Notes under the pieces: generated by a model
Told to the model about the DNA's origin: nothing
Database searches by the model: none
What the model saw: only the letters and a program-made list of their open reading frames with translations
Position numbers and translations under genes: made by a program
Shown: positions 49,047-59,866 of the stretch, piece after piece
How the letters are laid out: every line of letters starts with the position of its first letter
Position numbering within the stretch: the first letter of the stretch is position 1
Source: Pedobacter mendelii
GTDB taxonomy: Bacteria; Bacteroidota; Bacteroidia; Sphingobacteriales; Sphingobacteriaceae
Direction of reading: 5' to 3'
Length of the DNA stretch: 64,000 bases
Assembly (NCBI RefSeq): GCF_014635725.1
Contig: NZ_BMDJ01000003.1
Span: 310,001-374,000, forward strand

Positions 49047-51188
49047 TTATTGATTTGAAGGAATAGTTTCTTTATTGGCTTTTATATCGGTACCTAAGCG
49101 TTGTAAATAAGCAATGATGGCTACAATTTCTCTATCGCTTTTTATTTTGATGTTGTTTTGTTTTAAATCAAAAGCAATTTTATCAGCCTGAATTTTTAAA
49201 TCAATGTTTGCTTGTTTATCATAACCTTCGGGATATGGCACACCCAGCGTTTGCATCGCTTTTATTTTACTTGGCGTTGAGGTTATATCTAGTTTTTGCT
49301 CAATTAACCATGGATAAGGAGGCATAATACTTCCAGGCGACATAGAAGTAGGGTCAAATAAATGATTAAAATGCCAGGCATCAGAATACTTCCCGCCTAT
49401 GCGGTGCAAATCTGGCCCGGTTCTTTTACTTCCCCACAAAAAAGGATGGTCGTAAACAAATTCGCCGGCCTTACTATATTCTCCATATCGTTCCGTTTCT
49501 GAACGGAATGGACGAACGGTTTGAGAATGGCAGTTTACACAACCTTCCCTGATGTATAAATCTCTACCTTGAAGTTCTAAAGCAGAGTAAGGTTTTACAC
49601 TTGCAATTGTTGGTATGTTTGATTGTATGGTAAAAGTTGGCATCATTTCTACCATACCTCCAATAAGAATTATGATTAAAGAAAGTACCATAAATTTCAT
49701 TGGCTTACGCTCTAAAACCCTATGCCAAGCCTTATCAGCCGGAGAACTATCAACAATTATTTTTGCCAGAGGCATAGCTTCAGCAGGTTCATTGGCAACA
49801 AGTTTTGCGCTTAGCATTGTTTTGGTGAGATTATACGCCATGGCGATAACACCCGTTAAATACAATGCACCACCAATTGAACGCAAAATATGCATTGGAA
49901 TAATTTGTAAGGTTGTAGCCAGAAAATTTGGATATTTTAACAAGCCTTCCGGTGTAAACTCTTTCCACATTAAGCCTTGTGTAAAGCCAGCCCAATACAT
50001 TGGTACAGCATAGAAAAGAATACCTAAAGTGCCTATCCAAAAGTGAAAGCCAGCCAATTTTTTAGAGTATAGTTCGGTTTTATAAATTCGTGGAATTAAC
50101 CAGTACAAAACACCAAAGGTTAAAAATCCATTCCACCCTAGTGCGCCAACGTGTACATGTGCAACAATCCAATCAGTAAAATGTGCCACACCATTTATTT
50201 GTTTAAGAGATAACAAAGGTCCTTCGAAGGTTGCCATACCATAAGCGGTAAGTGCTACAACCATAAATTTCAGTGTAACATCTTCCCTTACCTTATCCCA
50301 TGCGCCACGTAAAGTTAAAAGACCATTAATCATACCGCCCCAACTTGGTGCAATAAGCATAATAGAGAATGCTACGCCTAAAGATTGAGCCCAACCGGGA
50401 AGCGAGGTATATAATAAATGGTGAGGACCTGCCCAGATGTAAATAAAAATTAAAGACCAAAAGTGAAGAATACTCAGCTTATAAGAATAAACCGGTCTAT
50501 TCGCCATTTTAGGCAAGAAATAATACATCATTCCCAGATACGGTGTAGTTAGAAAAAATGCTACGGCATTATGTCCATACCACCATTGCACTAATGCATC
50601 TTGAACGCCAGCATACACATAATAACTTTTCATAAAAGAAATTGGCAACTCGAAAGAGTTTACGATGTGTAAAACAGCAATGGTAACAAAGGTGGCTATG
50701 TAAAACCAAATGGCCACATATAAATGTCTTTCTCTTCTTTTAATAATTGTACCAAACATGTTTACGCCAAAAACCACCCATATTATTGTTATAGCAATAT
50801 CTATCGGCCATTCGAGTTCGGCATATTCGTGTGATGTAGTAAAGCCTAAAGGAAGTGTTATAACTGCCGAAACAATTATGAGTTGCCAGCCCCAGAAATG
50901 AATTTTGCTTAGCACATCGCTAAACATTCTGGCTTTTAATAAGCGTTGAAGCGAATAGTAAACACCCATAAAAATTGCATTACCTACGAAGGCAAAAATT
51001 ACAGCATTAGTATGTAATGGTCTGATTCTCCCGAAAGTAGTGTATTGGCTACCAAGGTTCATTATAGGCTTAAAAAGTTGCATGGCTGCAAGTAAACCAA
51101 CAGTCATTCCTATAATTCCCCACACCAACGTGGCGAGAGCAAAGTTTCGAACAATTTTATTATCGTAAGTAAATTTTTCTAACAGCAT
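49047..51188 (-). CDS. Fused CcoN-CcoO: cbb3-type cytochrome c oxidase subunits I and II
   Basis: A 713-aa fusion. Residues 1-~480 are CcoN with at least twelve spans (LVQWWYGHNAVAFFLTTPYL carrying the CuB His-Tyr region, then HHLLYTSLP and FTDWIVAHVHVGALGWNGF with haem ligands). Residues ~500-713 are CcoO: one span (FMVLSLIIILIGGMVEMMPT), then ALELQGRDLYIREGCVNCHS with the c-type haem site CVNCH, and TGPDLHRIGGKYSDAWHFNH. In Proteobacteria these are separate genes; fusions are common in Bacteroidota. It is the catalytic core of the high-affinity terminal oxidase. Confidence 0.95.
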   Translation of the reverse strand: MLLEKFTYDNKIVRNFALATLVWGIIGMTVGLLAAMQLFKPIMNLGSQYTTFGRIRPLHTNAVIFAFVGNAIFMGVYYSLQRLLKARMFSDVLSKIHFWGWQLIIVSAVITLPLGFTTSHEYAELEWPIDIAITIIWVVFGVNMFGTIIKRRERHLYVAIWFYIATFVTIAVLHIVNSFELPISFMKSYYVYAGVQDALVQWWYGHNAVAFFLTTPYLGMMYYFLPKMANRPVYSYKLSILHFWSLIFIYIWAGPHHLLYTSLPGWAQSLGVAFSIMLIAPSWGGMINGLLTLRGAWDKVREDVTLKFMVVALTAYGMATFEGPLLSLKQINGVAHFTDWIVAHVHVGALGWNGFLTFGVLYWLIPRIYKTELYSKKLAGFHFWIGTLGILFYAVPMYWAGFTQGLMWKEFTPEGLLKYPNFLATTLQIIPMHILRSIGGALYLTGVIAMAYNLTKTMLSAKLVANEPAEAMPLAKIIVDSSPADKAWHRVLERKPMKFMVLSLIIILIGGMVEMMPTFTIQSNIPTIASVKPYSALELQGRDLYIREGCVNCHSQTVRPFRSETERYGEYSKAGEFVYDHPFLWGSKRTGPDLHRIGGKYSDAWHFNHLFDPTSMSPGSIMPPYPWLIEQKLDITSTPSKIKAMQTLGVPYPEGYDKQANIDLKIQADKIAFDLKQNNIKIKSDREIVAIIAYLQRLGTDIKANKETIPSNQ

Positions 51189-53830: not shown

Positions 53831-55177
53831 TTAAACAGATAAACTGAACAGCTGCGTTTTTGGCTGTTTAAGCCATAGTTTCTCATCAAAGGCCATGCAA
53901 ACATTTCTAAGGAACGATTTTCCATGAGCTGTAATTTTTATTTCCTTTTCATTAATTGATATTAATTTATCTATCAATAAAGGCTGCAAGCGTATATTCA
54001 CTGCCTCAGGAATTCTATTATGATAAGTGGTATTTTCTTTACACATAATATTTAGGATATGCTTTCTGATTTCCAAATCTTCTGCAGTTAACAAATGTCC
54101 TTTCTCAACAGGAAGAATTCCATTTTGAATTTTATCGAGATAGGTTTCTACTGTTTTAGTGTTTTGGGCAAAAGCTGTCCAGCTATCGCTTATAGATGAA
54201 ACACCCAAGCCTATTAATAAATGAGTATGTTGGTTGGTATAACCCATAAAGTTTCGATGGAGTTTCTGTTCTTTAACTGCGTGAAACAATGAATCGCTTT
54301 TAAGCGCAAAATGATCCATACCTACATCTTCGTAACCAGCATAAAAAAACATTTGCCGGCCAGCCTGATAAAGTGCAAATTTCTCATCCCCAGCCGGGAT
54401 ATCTTTTTCAGTATAATGTCTTTGGCCTGGTTTTAACCATGGAACATGAGCATAACTGTAAAAAGCAATACGATCTGGCTTCATAATAATTGCTTCCTTA
54501 ATGGTTTCTTTTAACCCAGAAATAGTTTGCCCGGGTAAGCCATAAATCAGATCGAAATTGATGGAAGTATAACCGATTTTTCTGGCATCTTCTGTAACTT
54601 TTGAAACCTGATCTGGTGTTTGGTAACGATTGATGAGAAACTGAACTTTCGCATCAAAATCCTGAATACCAAGACTCAATCTTCTAAAACCAAGGTTATA
54701 AAGGGCTATTAAATGATGGGAAGTTGTATTTCCTGGATGTGCTTCAAAAGAAAATTCTGCATCGTTAGCAATTTCTGCATTATGCATTACTCCTTTTATT
54801 AATTCTTGAAGGTTTTCTGCCTTAAAAAACGTGGGTGTTCCGCCGCCGAGGTGCAGCTCTTTAATTTTTGGTGTTCCGCCTAAAATTTTAACATACATTT
54901 TCCATTCTTTAAGCAATGCATTTATGTAAGGCTTTTCTACTAGATGGTTTTTTGTAATTCGGGTATTACAACCGCAATAAGTACACATACTTTCACAAAA
55001 AGGAAGGTGGATATATAGACTTATACCCTCTTCGTTATAATTTGAATATGTTTTTGTTACAGATTTTAGCCAATCATTTATGCTAAAAAGTTCATTATCC
55101 CAATAAGGTACAGTTGGGTAGCTGGTGTACCTTGGTGCAGCAACATTATATTTTTTTAGTAGCGCAGCATTTTCCAT
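53831..55177 (-). CDS. hemN: Oxygen-independent coproporphyrinogen III oxidase
   Basis: A 448-aa radical-SAM enzyme that converts coproporphyrinogen III to protoporphyrinogen IX without O2. The radical-SAM cluster is CESMCTYCGC (Cx3CxxC), followed by LHLGGGTPTFF, FEAHPGNTT, RLSLGIQDFD and a C-terminal HemN domain. The opening YNVAAPRYTSYPTVPYWD is typical of true HemN rather than the HemW type. Its ATG overlaps the upstream gene stop by one base (TAATG). It links haem supply to the oxidase. Confidence 0.95.
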   Translation of the reverse strand: MENAALLKKYNVAAPRYTSYPTVPYWDNELFSINDWLKSVTKTYSNYNEEGISLYIHLPFCESMCTYCGCNTRITKNHLVEKPYINALLKEWKMYVKILGGTPKIKELHLGGGTPTFFKAENLQELIKGVMHNAEIANDAEFSFEAHPGNTTSHHLIALYNLGFRRLSLGIQDFDAKVQFLINRYQTPDQVSKVTEDARKIGYTSINFDLIYGLPGQTISGLKETIKEAIIMKPDRIAFYSYAHVPWLKPGQRHYTEKDIPAGDEKFALYQAGRQMFFYAGYEDVGMDHFALKSDSLFHAVKEQKLHRNFMGYTNQHTHLLIGLGVSSISDSWTAFAQNTKTVETYLDKIQNGILPVEKGHLLTAEDLEIRKHILNIMCKENTTYHNRIPEAVNIRLQPLLIDKLISINEKEIKITAHGKSFLRNVCMAFDEKLWLKQPKTQLFSLSV

Positions 55178-55605
55178 TATTTTAAAGTTTTAACCACTGC
55201 ACATTCATTTTGGCAACAACATGCATTGCCCACGCATTTGCCCGCAGCCCATTGATCAAGGTTTTTAATAACCTGCTCCATACGCAGCTTAGGCGTTATA
55301 TTACTTGGTTGTAATGGAACATTTGCCACTTTCATTCCGGCAGAACCAGCTGCTTTTAAATCAAGATGGTCAGTTTCAAAAGACGAAGTTGCAATATATC
55401 TTATACCAAGAGATTTAAGTCCCTGAATCATAGCTTCGCTTAGATAATCGTTATTAAATACTAAAAGTGCTTCTTTTCCAGCTGCAAATGAAAGCGTATC
55501 GGCCGTTAAGCTGTTTGCAATTATAGTAATGTCGTGCTTTTTATAGTTGGCGAGAACCAACCATTCTTTTTCATCGGGCTTAATGTTATAAGCTATAGCT
55601 TTCAT
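55177..55605 (-). CDS. Stand-alone catalytic-domain remnant of a D-2-hydroxyacid dehydrogenase, Cys-rich tail
   Basis: A 142-aa protein. Residues ~1-103 look like the first half of the catalytic domain of D-lactate-dehydrogenase-type enzymes (VFNNDYLSEAMIQGLKSLGI, then RYIATSSFETDHLDLKAAGS and GMKVANVPLQPSN). In such enzymes an NAD-binding Rossmann domain is inserted next; here the chain goes directly to MEQVIKNLDQWAAGKC, which resembles the closing C-terminal helix. The NAD domain is absent, so catalysis is unlikely. The tail GKCVGNACCCQNECAVV is Cys-rich and could bind metal or an Fe-S cluster. It lies in the hemN operon, downstream of the regulator. Function unknown. Confidence 0.7.
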   Translation of the reverse strand: MKAIAYNIKPDEKEWLVLANYKKHDITIIANSLTADTLSFAAGKEALLVFNNDYLSEAMIQGLKSLGIRYIATSSFETDHLDLKAAGSAGMKVANVPLQPSNITPKLRMEQVIKNLDQWAAGKCVGNACCCQNECAVVKTLK

Positions 55606-55709: not shown

Positions 55710-56741
55710 TTAATGTTTTATATTTTTAAGTTTTTCCACTGATAGAATATTAATGGCATTACCTGTTTTATCGATAAGTTTTTCATCTTTAAAATCAGCC
55801 AACATTCTGCTTATCGTTTCGCTTGCAGTGCCAACTAATGCTGCCAAATCATCTCTTGATATGCGAATGGTACAGCTATCTTCTTTGCCATCGCCAAATT
55901 TTGCCGCAACTTGCAATAACGCTTCAGCAACTCTTTTTCTAACTGAAGAATACGCCAGTTCAAGCATCTGTTTTCCTTTATCGCGTACATTTCCTGATAA
56001 CAGCCCAATAAATATTTTAGATACTGCCTGATGATTTAGCAAGTATTCCATAAAATCGGTTTTAGGTATTTGGATAATATCCGATTCGAATAATGTTGCT
56101 GCATTATCTGCATACATTTCGCCATTACATAAGCTCTCATATCCAAAAAAATCACCATCATGATAAAGACTTGAGCTAAGTTCTCTCCCATCTTTAAAAC
56201 GTTTATATGTTTTAACCTGACCTTTTAATAAATAGTAGAGATGGGTAGGTTCATCACCCTCAACATATATAATTTGTTTATTACCAATCAATCTGGTTTT
56301 TCCTTTTTTCCGAAGTTCATCCATTACAGCTTCGGTATTTATTGCCAAAGAGTTAAAACCTGTTGCTTGCTGTTTCTTTTTGAACCTACTCTCTATCGCT
56401 TTAAAAAGTTCAATATCATCAAATGGTTTAGTAAGATAATCATCAGCACCCATTTCCATGCCTTTACGCATATCTGCCCGTTCTGTTTTTGCTGTAATGA
56501 AGATAAATGGGATGTTGGCCGTGCTTTGATTCTTATTCAACAAATACAAAACACCGTAGCCATCTAATTCCGGCATCATAATATCACAAAGAATAATATC
56601 AGGTATGTGTTTTAGTGCCATATCTACCCCAAGCTTACCATGTTTTGCGGTAAGAGTTTCATAACCTGCAAGATCTAGCACTTCGGCTGTACTTTCTCTT
56701 ATATCATCATTATCTTCAATTATTAAAACTTTTTTGTTCAT
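55710..56741 (-). CDS. Receiver domain fused to a CRP/FNR-family regulator
   Basis: A 343-aa regulator. Residues ~1-120 are a receiver domain with phosphoacceptor D53 (IILCDIMMPELDGYG) and T/K residues in FIFITAK and TKPFDD. Residues ~135-260 are a cyclic-nucleotide-binding-type beta-roll (YLLKGQVKTYKRFKDGRELS, then HDGDFFGYESL). Residues ~265-340 are a Crp-type winged helix (RISRDDLAALVGTASETISR then MLADFKDEKLI). No Cys cluster for an Fe-S FNR site is seen. It is a receiver-CRP fusion, probably phosphorylated by the kinase encoded 23 bp upstream. Confidence 0.92.
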   Translation of the reverse strand: MNKKVLIIEDNDDIRESTAEVLDLAGYETLTAKHGKLGVDMALKHIPDIILCDIMMPELDGYGVLYLLNKNQSTANIPFIFITAKTERADMRKGMEMGADDYLTKPFDDIELFKAIESRFKKKQQATGFNSLAINTEAVMDELRKKGKTRLIGNKQIIYVEGDEPTHLYYLLKGQVKTYKRFKDGRELSSSLYHDGDFFGYESLCNGEMYADNAATLFESDIIQIPKTDFMEYLLNHQAVSKIFIGLLSGNVRDKGKQMLELAYSSVRKRVAEALLQVAAKFGDGKEDSCTIRISRDDLAALVGTASETISRMLADFKDEKLIDKTGNAINILSVEKLKNIKH

Positions 56742-56764: not shown

Positions 56765-57964
56765 TTATTTTATGAACCGAAAATTGAGCGTAAAAATAGT
56801 TCCCGAATTTTGTTCGCTCTCACAAACCACGGATCCATTCATTAATCCAACATATCGCTTTACAATATTAAGCCCAAGCCCGGTTCCGGGAATATCGCCG
56901 GTATTGTGTGCCCTAAAAAAAGGCTCAAAAAGATTATTCTGATCGGCTTTAGGAATGCCTATACCATTATCTTTAACTTCCAGAATAAGCTCGTCATCTT
57001 TTAATATAGTATTAAATTGTATTAGTGTATCCTCTCCCGAATATTTTATGGAGTTAGATATCAGATTTATGATACAGTTTTTGAGCAGGTTAGCATCCAG
57101 GTAAACTTCAGCTGTGGTACCTGTATGTTCATAAATAATATGCTGATTTTGTTTAGTCATCATTTGCATTTCTTCCGCTATTTCTTCAGCAAAGCTGATA
57201 ATATTAAAAGATTGAGCAGAAGCTTCTACCTTACCTGCCTCAAGTTTTTCTAATGATAAAAAATCGTTTAAGATGGTTGTTAAGTTGTTTATCGAATTCT
57301 TAATTTTCAATGTATGTTTTTCTACACTTGCCGTATCCTGCTTTGTTGTGTATTTATCAATTAACGAAGCTGATAACTGTATAGAGCTTAGCGGCGTTCT
57401 AAACTCATGTGATGCCATGGAAACAAATCTTGTTTTTAGCTGATTTAGTTCCTTTTCTTTTTGAAAAAGTGCCCGCATATTCTCTTTAGCCATTTCAAGT
57501 TCCGATACAAGCTTAACCAAATCTTGAGTACGTTCTTTTATTTTAACTTCTAGCTTTTCAGTATAACTTTTAATCTGCTCCTCGTTTGCTTTTTCTTTAC
57601 TTAAATCGTGTATAAAACCAGTGTATATTTTCCTATCGCTAAATTTTATTTCGCTAACACCTAATCTGAAAGGAAAAACAGAACCGTCTTTGCGCTTTCC
57701 TGATACTTCTCTACCAGTACCAATAATGTGCTTTTGACCGGTATGTTCATATCTCGAAAGATATTTATCATGGCGTGAATAATCTGGTTCAGGCATTAGT
57801 TTTGATATATTTTGCCCTACCAATTCTACTCTTTCATAACCAAAAAGTTCGAGCGCAGCCGGATTTAAATGTTCAATAATTCCTTTATCATCTATAGTTA
57901 TAATTCCATCTATGGCATTTTCAATTATTGCATCTAAAAATTTCGATCTATCCATTAAACTCAT
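56765..57964 (-). CDS. PAS-domain sensor histidine kinase, cognate to the receiver-CRP regulator
   Basis: A 399-aa cytosolic kinase without membrane spans. Residues ~5-125 are PAS (AIDGIITIDDKGIIEHLNPA, then FGYERVELVGQNISKLMPEP, as in FixL). A coiled coil (~130-180) leads to HisKA with SMASHEFRTPLSSIQLS and HATPase_c with NLISNSIKYSG, DNGIGIPKADQ and GTGLGLNIVKRY. FixL-type haem ligation would need a specific PAS His; none is clearly identifiable here, so oxygen sensing is inferred from context. It precedes the regulator on the same strand. Confidence 0.92.
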   Translation of the reverse strand: MSLMDRSKFLDAIIENAIDGIITIDDKGIIEHLNPAALELFGYERVELVGQNISKLMPEPDYSRHDKYLSRYEHTGQKHIIGTGREVSGKRKDGSVFPFRLGVSEIKFSDRKIYTGFIHDLSKEKANEEQIKSYTEKLEVKIKERTQDLVKLVSELEMAKENMRALFQKEKELNQLKTRFVSMASHEFRTPLSSIQLSASLIDKYTTKQDTASVEKHTLKIKNSINNLTTILNDFLSLEKLEAGKVEASAQSFNIISFAEEIAEEMQMMTKQNQHIIYEHTGTTAEVYLDANLLKNCIINLISNSIKYSGEDTLIQFNTILKDDELILEVKDNGIGIPKADQNNLFEPFFRAHNTGDIPGTGLGLNIVKRYVGLMNGSVVCESEQNSGTIFTLNFRFIK

Positions 57965-58012: not shown

Positions 58013-59782
58013 TTATTGGATAATGATTTTATTTAACTTAACCTCTGCAATTGCAAGTTCTTTCAACTGCTGAGCCGCCTGAGTAGTAAATTCACCAAAT
58101 AAAATTTTGTAATAATTTATACCCTCTGAAAGCTGTAATTTAAATCTGGTTAACCGTTTCATTTTTTTATCGCCAAAGTTTTGAAATTGTTTCCTAATAT
58201 CTTCCTGAAAGTAATCGATATACAAATTAAGCTCATTAATAAAAAAATGTGACCTTTCTACTTTTTCTAATAAATTTACCTTCCCATAAATATGTCCAAC
58301 CATATCATCAAAAGAATATACATCAGAGAAATAAGCTAAATTAGGCCCCGGACAAATGGCAACGGCCTTATTTTCTTTAGGTTTAAAAATGTTATACTTT
58401 AAATATGCAGAAGAGCACAGTCCTTCGCAAAGACAAACTTTTTCGGTTACTTCATTAAATTGCTGTTGGTATTCATCATCTGATAAACCAGCATTTTTTA
58501 AACTCTTTATTTTTAAGTTTTGATATTCTCTTGATGCAGTGCAAATGGCCTGCTTTGTAAACTCCGTATTGTTGCAAAGATATTTCTTGGTACATGGACT
58601 ACCTGGCCTACCTTTTTCAATGCGTTCTTTTCTTTGTAAATCTATTGTACTGTTTTTAAAATTATTAAATTTTATACCCAATGGAGAAACGCTGCTCAGG
58701 TAAAAATCACTTTCTTGTGAGTCCGTTAGCTGCACTAATGTTTCAGCATCTACATTTGTAACTTCGGGTACCAAAAGAAAAGGACTGCCCCAGCCTGCAG
58801 CGTCAATTCCATAGTATTTTAACAAAAAGTTATGCTCTGCAGAAGTACCTATTCCGCCCTGAACGGTAATTCTTTGTTTGGGTAAGTCTGAAATTATTAT
58901 CCCTTTTACAGCTAAAGCATTTTTGTAACTTTCTATTAGCTCATTAAACATTTCGCTTTTTTTTACTTTAAAATCCTGTAAAATGGGGCCTAAAAGATAC
59001 CCTTCAGTAGCAAATGCATGTCCGCCACAGTTTAAACCAGATTCTATTCTGAACTCTGACACCCATAATCCTTTTTTAGCTAGAAACTTAGCCTGAATTA
59101 ATGCCGATCTAAAATCGCTAACCTTCAATATTATTTTCTTTTTTTGAACACCTTTCTCATCAGGGGAAAAATCTTTAAAGTTTTCCATATAACTATACAA
59201 TCTCGGGTTCATACCAGCCGAAAGAATAACCGAAGAAGTTAAATTACTTTCTGCAAATCCGCGTAAAGCTGCAAGAGCATCTGTATTTAAATCGCCCGAA
59301 TATTCATTGTTAATGTAGTTCATTTTATCAACCTTTGCCATGATATTTACATCTACAGAACCTAATTTCATAGCATTGCGCAATACATTCTGAAAAGTTG
59401 TTTTCTCATCTCCTTCCGGATAATCCTTCATCAAATCGTAGCTTCGTTTAAGTTTTGACGTTTCGGGCAAAAGCTCAAAATAACGGCAGATATCATTACC
59501 TGCTTCAAAATTTTGTTTTTTTAGTACATTAAATTGCTCATCTATTCTTTCACCTAAAAAATTTAAATAGGATGTAATTCTTTTTGAGCGATAATCTGTT
59601 TCCTGCTTATCTATAGGTATATATTTTACTGTATATTTTTCTGAATGATAAGCCCGCATGCGCTCAATTAATTCATCATCTACGATTGATAAAACAGAGG
59701 AAACGCCATATCTGGCTACTTTTAATGGTGTATCAATAGAATAACCCAGACCTAAAACCGGGATGTGGAAAGTATGCAACAT
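58013..59782 (-). CDS. Large Cys-rich protein of unknown function in the cbb3 locus
   Basis: A 589-aa protein I cannot name. N-terminal VLGLGYSIDTPLKVARYGVS and a central GLNCGGHAFATEGYLLGPIL, then ITVQGGIGTSAEHNFLLKYY, then AAGWGSPFLLVPEVTNVD, look like a TIM-barrel of the nitronate-monooxygenase/glutamate-synthase type that could bind flavin. A later part has cysteines at about 397, 403, 414, 450, 452, 456 and 477 (CTKKYLC, VCLCEGLC, ICPGP), suggestive of an Fe-S or metal site. No signal peptide or membrane spans. It opens the block before the kinase, 48 bp from it, with an FNR-like box upstream. I infer a redox enzyme used at low oxygen. Confidence 0.7.
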   Translation of the reverse strand: MLHTFHIPVLGLGYSIDTPLKVARYGVSSVLSIVDDELIERMRAYHSEKYTVKYIPIDKQETDYRSKRITSYLNFLGERIDEQFNVLKKQNFEAGNDICRYFELLPETSKLKRSYDLMKDYPEGDEKTTFQNVLRNAMKLGSVDVNIMAKVDKMNYINNEYSGDLNTDALAALRGFAESNLTSSVILSAGMNPRLYSYMENFKDFSPDEKGVQKKKIILKVSDFRSALIQAKFLAKKGLWVSEFRIESGLNCGGHAFATEGYLLGPILQDFKVKKSEMFNELIESYKNALAVKGIIISDLPKQRITVQGGIGTSAEHNFLLKYYGIDAAGWGSPFLLVPEVTNVDAETLVQLTDSQESDFYLSSVSPLGIKFNNFKNSTIDLQRKERIEKGRPGSPCTKKYLCNNTEFTKQAICTASREYQNLKIKSLKNAGLSDDEYQQQFNEVTEKVCLCEGLCSSAYLKYNIFKPKENKAVAICPGPNLAYFSDVYSFDDMVGHIYGKVNLLEKVERSHFFINELNLYIDYFQEDIRKQFQNFGDKKMKRLTRFKLQLSEGINYYKILFGEFTTQAAQQLKELAIAEVKLNKIIIQ

Positions 59783-59854
59783 AAGGTTGTTTTTATTATC
59801 GCAAACCTATTAAACACTAATTAAATCAGGAAAGAGTATGATTACATTAAAAAA

Positions 59855-59866
59855 TGATGAGCATCA
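59855..59866. promoter_or_regulatory. FNR/FixK-like box upstream of the 589-aa gene
   Basis: TGATGAGCATCA is TGAT-N4-ATCA, the core of the FNR/FixK consensus TTGAT-N4-ATCAA, lacking only the outermost bases. It is centred about 78 bases before the ATG at 59782. Confidence 0.5.

Follow-up and report, generated by a model that had tools for sequence, protein, structure and literature searches.

A distant FabX homologue under CRP/FNR-type promoter control in Pedobacter mendelii and its relatives: a candidate enzyme for unsaturated fatty acid synthesis at low oxygen

What does a cysteine-rich protein outside every named family do at the head of a block of low-oxygen genes? The question is raised by a gene in a 64,000-nucleotide stretch of the Pedobacter mendelii genome (contig NZ_BMDJ01000003.1, positions 310,001 to 374,000; the whole stretch is called the window here). 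A sequence-only reading had described its product as a possible flavin protein with TIM-barrel-like motifs and a cysteine-rich part, preceded by an FNR-like box, and had suggested an undescribed redox step. We report that the protein is a distant homologue of FabX, the flavin mononucleotide (FMN)/[4Fe-4S] acyl-acyl carrier protein (acyl-ACP) dehydrogenase/isomerase of unsaturated fatty acid synthesis in Helicobacter (PMC8626469). With a probability that we put at about 0.48, it makes unsaturated fatty acids at low oxygen, a substrate and role that we infer. The open reading frame (ORF) is as first described, the range 58013-59866 noted then being the ORF plus the box:

58013..59782 (-): reading frame encoding the FabX-like protein (589 residues, ATG start); homologues of similar length at 43-78% identity

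An AlphaFold model built with 53 alignment rows had a predicted local distance difference test score (pLDDT) of 90.6 and a predicted template modelling score (pTM) of 0.91, and it showed an NMO-type FMN TIM barrel. In a Foldseek search with this model, FabX took ranks 1-4 and 7 (best expectation value, E, 2.3e-10), with PfaD at ranks 5, 6 and 9. By VIA-align, five FabX entries led (best Z 27.9, root-mean-square deviation [rmsd] 3.2 angstrom over 329 residues), followed by PfaD (Z 23.9 at rmsd 6.2), FabK (22.6) and quinone reductase/NMO entries (about 22). The aligned range pairs model residues 1-501 with FabX residues 15-363, which is nearly all of FabX. Compared to FabX, the model has extra helices at about residues 36-140, and it ends in a further helical unit:

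58016..58255 (-): C-terminal three-helix bundle, residues 510-589, outside the FabX-aligned part; a common type without an informative relative

Altogether, the three methods bear out the flavin-type TIM barrel that had been proposed from sequence. The accompanying view that the protein cannot be placed holds for a named family and fails for the fold, which is closest to that of a characterised acyl-ACP dehydrogenase/isomerase. A FabX-like flavo-iron-sulfur fold is well supported and highly probable, with FMN and a cluster as its predicted occupants.

Profile comparison gave a related result. Two family alignments, both containing the window protein, were used: A1, with 36 rows of 95 proteins, and A2, with 53 of 81 (the window protein and 80 from named loci, the flagged L176 being excluded). 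FabX was represented by A3, in which 24 rows combine 23 of the 25 Bacteroidota FabX proteins with Helicobacter FabX; the FabX query sequence was checked against the PDB chain. By hhalign, A1 matched FabX at E 2.1e-6 over 246 columns and A2 at 3.1e-5, compared to 0.02 for the best of 60 FabX column shuffles and 0.14 for the reversed control; among 50 unrelated neighbour families, none did better than 0.0077. Against 25 FabK rows, the values were at noise level (0.019 for A1, 0.11 for A2), and the FabX and FabK profiles matched each other at 1.7e-38. A single FabX sequence against A1 reached E 0.019 over 81 columns, the match becoming convincing only after the FabX alignment was used. Compared separately, the two parts gave weaker matches than the whole, the barrel reaching E 0.00063 with the FabX barrel and the cysteine part 0.0018. 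The fold and sequence evidence together place the family nearer to FabX than to FabK and far from both.

This distance is consistent with the searches of family collections. The window protein had nothing over the Pfam cut-off, its sole listed match being CotJB (E 0.009, below cut-off); it gave zero NCBIfam matches at E up to 1, a best PHROG value of E 0.14 with no relative, and no match among PDB sequences at E up to 10. When the 36 A1 rows were scanned singly against Pfam, nothing consistent emerged, the commonest family reaching 4 of 36 rows among the 25 of 34 families listed. NMO (PF03060) was not among these 25 and did not match the window protein or two homologues (L171, L131), whereas it scores above 200 bits for a FabX and a FabK of Bacteroidota (FabX, 209 bits). 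The absence of a named family, as first noted, is thus upheld by the Pfam, NCBIfam and PHROG searches, and a literature search, mainly of openly readable papers, found no description of the FabX-like family. A PDB profile search also yielded no relative, its apolipoprotein matches being limited to the C-terminal helices and set aside.

The residues that the family conserves fall on several functional positions of FabX. In that enzyme, FMN is bound by N99, E175, Q240 and T243; H182 is the catalytic base, held by S273; the [4Fe-4S] cluster is carried on C300, C304, C308 and C320, F339-T340-G341 lies near FMN, and helix 7 binds ACP through K152, I156, K159, R160 and R164 (PMC8626469). The corresponding elements of the window protein are as follows:

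59012..59044 (-): ESGLNCGGHAF, residues 247-257; E247, C252 and H255 invariant, H255 corresponding to the FabX catalytic H182
58844..58861 (-): QGGIGT, residues 308-313; glycine motif of the NMO-type barrel (AGGI in FabX)
58763..58795 (-): GWGSPFLLVPE, residues 330-340; counterpart of FabX QMATRF, with FabX Q240 replaced by invariant G330
58340..58594 (-): cysteine subdomain, residues 397-481; C397, C414, C450, C452 and C477-PGPN invariant; proposed iron-sulfur site with putative ligands

Six cysteines, C252, C397, C414, C450, C452 and C477, are invariant in 36/36 rows of A1 and 53/53 rows of A2, as are N146, R225, E247, H255, W331, S366 and the CPGPN motif. The cysteine-rich part from C397 to C477 is therefore where it had been described, and the motifs GGIGTSAEH and GWGSPFLLVPE, also picked out from sequence, lie at residues 309-317 and 330-340 on conserved columns. 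The alignments of A1 and A2 with FabX agree on N146=N99, S222=S149, R225=K152, I229=I156, C252=S179, H255=H182, G309/G310=G220/G221, G330=Q240, S333=T243, F335=F245, S366=S273, C397=C300 and C414=C320 (FabX second); of these, N146, R225, H255, S366, C397 and C414 are invariant, and S222 is not. The set of FMN ligands is kept in part, with N146 retained and serine or threonine at position 333; E247 as the counterpart of E175 is our own reading and not that of the aligner. Both comparisons align the ACP-helix residue K152 with invariant R225, and R225, K232, K236 and K237, which share a helix, all hardly vary.

Compared to H. pylori FabX (HP0773; PDB 7e1q, 9lt5), the family shares the NMO-type FMN barrel, the histidine in GGH, the FMN-ligand asparagine, an SP(V/L)G motif after the barrel followed by a cysteine subdomain, a positive helix at the probable ACP face and a low-oxygen setting. 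It differs in its cluster motif: CX3CX3CX11C of FabX, whose CX3CX3C and fourth cysteine occur in 25/25 Bacteroidota FabX proteins read and form four invariant columns in A3, is replaced by C-x16-C-x35-C-x-C, with a CxC at 450/452 instead of the inner cluster pair. The CPGPN motif (477-481) apparently takes the place of FTGAN, C477 falling by eye on F339 near FMN; the roles given to C450, C452 and C477 likewise come from inspection by eye of sequence order and of the VIA-align range. Further differences from FabX are glycine for Q240, the lack of a Pfam NMO match, the helical insert at about 36-140 and the C-terminal three-helix bundle. Since the cluster motif is not kept, the protein is FabX-like by fold and is not FabX; it may still work like FabX.

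We propose that the protein is related to FabX, though distantly and with added parts, and that FMN in its NMO-type TIM barrel would remove two hydrogens from an ACP-bound acyl chain. Invariant His255 would be the base that pulls the C2 proton, a putative iron-sulfur cluster in the cysteine subdomain (candidate ligands C397, C414, C450 and C452) would store or relay electrons, and C477 may be placed by the FMN. The product, 2-enoyl-ACP, would isomerise to cis-3-enoyl-ACP and be elongated to an unsaturated fatty acid, the electron acceptor being something other than oxygen. A CRP/FNR-family activator would turn the gene on from a promoter laid out like those of the relatives' cbb3 oxidase and hemN genes, so that the step would be available when the acyl-ACP desaturase (PF03405), an oxygen-dependent enzyme, cannot work. 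That desaturase, encoded in the same genome, gives the same type of end product, unsaturated acyl-ACP, and has an unrelated fold. As the substrate of the FabX-like protein, acyl-ACP is somewhat favoured. In Neisseria, the FabX relative NGO1024, which we take to be UfaA, is needed without oxygen and has the physiological role proposed here. N. gonorrhoeae cannot make unsaturated fatty acids anaerobically without NGO1024, whose electron acceptor is described as unknown; the protein is a FabX homologue about 36% identical to a Parabacteroides protein (both cited in PMC11300592), whereas the FabX-like family is far more divergent. Parabacteroides FabX is itself about 40% identical to HP0773 and raises ceftriaxone tolerance in a Bacteroides host (PMC11300592). 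The step would thus be of the same kind as that of NGO1024, carried out by an enzyme that has diverged much further and whose gene is under CRP/FNR-type control, and it is as a predicted FabX-like reaction that the earlier "undescribed redox step" stands.

Regulation is the other well supported part of this proposal, and it starts from two elements upstream of the gene:

59855..59866 (-): TGATGCTCATCA, an FNR/CRP-like palindrome preceding the gene and conserved in homologues
59802..59809 (-): TAGGTTTG, match to the Bacteroidetes -7 element TAnnTTTG, 59 bp from the palindrome centre

TAnnTTTG is the Bacteroidetes -7 promoter consensus. Within the window, TGATN4ATCA occurs 4 times against 1.7 expected, a count reached in 7/100 shuffles and by itself weak evidence; the FNR-like box that had been noticed at 59855-59866 is nonetheless real, because it is conserved upstream of homologues. 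After removal of duplicates and short regions, 153 of 175 upstream regions were analyzed, and TGAN6TCA was found within 300 bp in 95/153, compared to 16.7% of 1398 other ORFs from the same loci; base shuffling of the 153 gave a mean of 13.4 and at most 23 in 200 trials. Pairs of the palindrome and TAnnTTTG (up to one mismatch) numbered 39 at a distance of 37 and 28 at 59, against a median of 1 over distances 20-109, and 60/153 upstreams have a pair at one of the two distances, 44 of them without mismatch. The distances differ by 22 bp, or two helical turns, an offset that resembles class II and class I activator sites. Among the 1398 control ORFs, 28 pairs lay at exactly 37/59, and 21 of them precede ccoNO, hemN or a D-lactate-dehydrogenase-like gene. 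CRP/FNR-type control, as first suggested, is therefore supported by a conserved palindrome at fixed promoter distances; activation of this kind is very probable in our judgement, with binding predicted from sequence, and the receiver-CRP protein encoded nearby is our guess for the activator.

The same arrangement, TGAN6TCA at exactly 37/59 bp from TAnnTTTG, was seen upstream of ccoNO, hemN and D-lactate-dehydrogenase-like genes in loci L095-L163, the last sharing the CRP/FNR-type layout in several loci. It appears to be a promoter signature that marks low-oxygen genes across Bacteroidota and could be used for regulon prediction. In the P. mendelii genome itself, the strict pattern is present at nine sites (three with distance 59, six with 37), with 1 and 0 in the reversed control. 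One of the nine belongs to the FabX-like gene, and two others precede genes for an acetate kinase and a fatty-acid hydroxylase (G000:C5:351507-351571, G000:C1:208368-208410). The remaining six do not resemble a low-oxygen set, so the pattern gives no clean regulon list.

The FabX-like gene is single-copy in its own genome. The family is present in 133/201 genomes sampled from the window's taxonomic family and in 112/296 sampled across the phylum, the 112 matches being nearly all full-length at 44-66% identity and one (G483) a fragment. Scanning of named genomes gave at least 587 confirmed stretches; the best 80 among them, the nearest relatives, are the named loci. These 80 are mostly from Pedobacter, Mucilaginibacter, Dyadobacter, Sphingobacterium, Pontibacter and Chitinophagaceae, and include metagenome-assembled genomes (MAGs) labelled Ignavibacteria/Ignavibacteriae, Sumerlaeota and Omnitrophota, labels that are possibly wrong. 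No plasmid-borne homologues were found. One genome carries, besides an intact copy, a second, broken one (L087, G293:C1:4371176-4372865). Canonical FabX is rare in the phylum panel (2/296 at E up to 1e-30), and neither genome that has it has the FabX-like family. In the order of one of these two genomes, among 60 genomes sampled, FabX is in 25, the FabX-like family in 10 and both in 1 (hypergeometric P 0.026; FabX called at E below 1e-100, weaker matches being probably FabK). Replacement of one enzyme by the other across genomes fits a shared role, though as a weak test. The FabX-like family goes together with the PF03405 desaturase in the panel, which has it in 54/112 genomes with the family compared to 27/184 without (p 6e-10, uncorrected for descent). 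The P. mendelii genome has one PF03405 desaturase, outside the window at G000:C3:492186, and the panel's two other genomes of this genus (G013, G035) have the desaturase and lack both the FabX-like family and cbb3.

Several points weigh against the proposal that the protein makes unsaturated fatty acids at low oxygen. FabX itself requires oxygen in vitro (PMC8626469). The profile alignments behind the homology are shallow, with an effective sequence number (Neff) of about 3, and the cysteine subdomain, folded and searched by itself within a C-terminal fragment (residues 345-589), had no significant match, the best being PfaD at E 0.18; that FabX is not among the matches listed carries no weight either way. 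Q240 is glycine in every family row; both alignments put E175 on S248, and invariant E247 has to be moved by one residue to pair with E175; C304 and C308 have no partner, falling on Y401 and N405. The register of the ACP helix differs between the comparisons, with K159 on K236/K232, R160 on K237/F233 and R164 on E243/K237, so that contact with ACP is plausible but not placed. No fatty-acid gene was seen beside the FabX-like gene, as judged by one acyl-ACP desaturase sequence compared with the loci and the window, which matched only in L186 and L189, both FabX loci of one genome. In nine Sphingobacterium loci inspected, all in a housekeeping neighbourhood, the palindrome stands 77-78 bp before the start codon in 8, only 1 of which has a -7 match at 37/59; of nine readable Bacteroidales upstreams, 3 have it within 300 bp, and just 1 within 150 bp; and neither ccoNO nor hemN of this window has the strict arrangement. 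Across the 296 genomes, in statistics that ignore shared descent, cbb3 occurs in 87/112 genomes with the family compared to 118/184 without (odds ratio 1.95, p 0.019), a weak association that leaves 25/112 family genomes with no cbb3 match, and 58/112 family genomes have no PF03405 match.

Other readings of the same fold must be set beside this one. The protein could be an acyl-thioester oxidoreductase with another product, e.g., a trans-acting enoyl reductase like PfaD or FabK that works in the reducing direction on a polyketide, polyene or branched chain. PfaD (Z 23.9) and FabK (22.6) have the same barrel, FabK also shares the catalytic histidine, and PfaD is similar in overall length and is the best, though weak, match of the C-terminal fragment (E 0.18). 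We nevertheless consider this reading unlikely, since FabX is ahead of PfaD by 4 Z units at about half the rmsd, the FabK profile stays at noise level (E 0.019) and no polyketide-type gene appears among about thirty labelled neighbour clusters. To our knowledge, PfaD has no conserved cysteines of this kind. FabK has an NAD(P)H motif where the cysteine subdomain would be, and the other characterised NMO-family members lack a [4Fe-4S] cluster, according to PMC8626469. A drifted FabX proper, with unchanged oxygen-dependent chemistry, would account for the fold, the histidine and part of the FMN site. It is quite improbable, because the Pfam NMO model gives 209 bits for a Bacteroidota FabX and no match for the window protein and two homologues, the cluster motif is not kept, the lengths are 589 and 363 residues, and C477 falls on F339 near FMN, at an end of the alignment made by eye.

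A non-lipid role is improbable as well, namely that of an NMO- or quinone-reductase-like redox protein for protection from, or repair of, nitrosative or low-oxygen stress. Genes for NosZ, NosD, NosL, a NorB-like protein, Rrf2 and ScdA/hemerythrin adjoin in some lineages, and the fold group includes NMO and the NADH:quinone reductase PA1024 (Z about 22), but FabX is nearest in fold, the position at which FabX binds ACP has a helix rich in lysine and arginine (register uncertain), and the palindrome persists where denitrification genes are not near.

The main proposal, that the protein makes unsaturated fatty acids at low oxygen, has a fuller form that is tentative and somewhat less probable: an undescribed, CRP/FNR-activated, oxygen-independent route in much of Bacteroidota, in which a FabX-like flavoenzyme with a different Fe-S site and an additional cysteine at the flavin would pass electrons to the low-oxygen respiratory chain or another carrier, not to oxygen, and replace FabX where it is missing. 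Bacteroidota are abundant where oxygen fluctuates. If true, an enzyme under low-oxygen control would close the gap left by an oxygen-needing desaturase and a rare FabX, would explain membrane fluidity in microaerobic and denitrifying growth, and would give a name to a family found in 112/296 sampled genomes.

The neighbours that had been named in the window, a PAS kinase, a receiver-CRP regulator, hemN and the cbb3 set, were confirmed by Pfam and NCBIfam-type models, with CcoG over its cut-off and CcoP below its own:

56765..57964 (-): PAS sensor histidine kinase (Pfam), starting 48 bases after the FabX-like gene
55710..56741 (-): receiver domain fused to a CRP-type regulator (Pfam); candidate activator of the palindrome
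53831..55177 (-): HemN, oxygen-independent coproporphyrinogen III oxidase (TIGR00538 over cut-off)
49047..51188 (-): fused CcoN/CcoO of cbb3 oxidase (NF011053, TIGR00780 and TIGR00781 over cut-off)

A P-type ATPase of the window is above the general cut-off and below those of the metal subfamilies. The order FabX-like gene, PAS kinase, receiver-CRP, D-lactate-dehydrogenase-like gene, HemN, P-type ATPase and CcoNO is found in seven genomes (the window, L095, L096 and L098-L101), and in six loci of Mucilaginibacter or MAGs (L102, L103, L106, L109, L111, L113) the FabX-like gene and the cbb3 operon are transcribed divergently. Other Pedobacter and Dyadobacter vary, some having the FabX-like gene beside the kinase, regulator and hemN in a different order and others not. 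Among the 80 best loci, 34 have cbb3, hemN, norB-like or nosZ genes in the fetched stretch (cbb3 in 21, hemN in 20, denitrification genes in 9) and 38 have none of the listed genes; short contigs depress these counts, and the use of nearest relatives inflates them. L074, whose ORF was not clustered, is absent from the comparison of gene order. Such genes were found in 4 of 40 loci chosen for spread, three of the four from the window's own family, and cbb3 in 3/40, all from that family; the broken or cut copies L087 and L089, excluded from protein counts, are within the 40. A general physical tie to cbb3, as the sequence-only reading implied, is therefore not supported: the tie is strong in close relatives and weak in the spread sample, and 25 family genomes have no cbb3 match. 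Shared regulation extends more widely than shared location.

Nine named loci (L122 of Daejeonella, L158 of Pontibacter, the rest MAGs) have nos/nor-type genes nearby. NosZ and NosD score above their cut-offs there, and the other products are NosL and a NorB-like protein of the COX1 family, which is accompanied by a small cytochrome c. The 142-residue protein at 55177-55605 (-) of the window (clusters 9 and 66 in related loci) is the N-terminal part of a D-lactate dehydrogenase with a cysteine-rich tail, CVGNACCCQNEC, and L115, L121 and L122 have a full-length enzyme of this type of about 350 residues. At L186 and L189 (G432), a canonical FabX gene is divergent from, and side by side with, a gene matched by the desaturase model PF03405. 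Genes for NadA (quinolinate synthase) and NadB (L-aspartate oxidase) lie downstream in L153, L160, L161, L175 and L069, four of which also have a tyrosine phenol-lyase/tryptophanase-type gene; these copies possibly serve as spares for oxygen- or NO-sensitive NAD synthesis.

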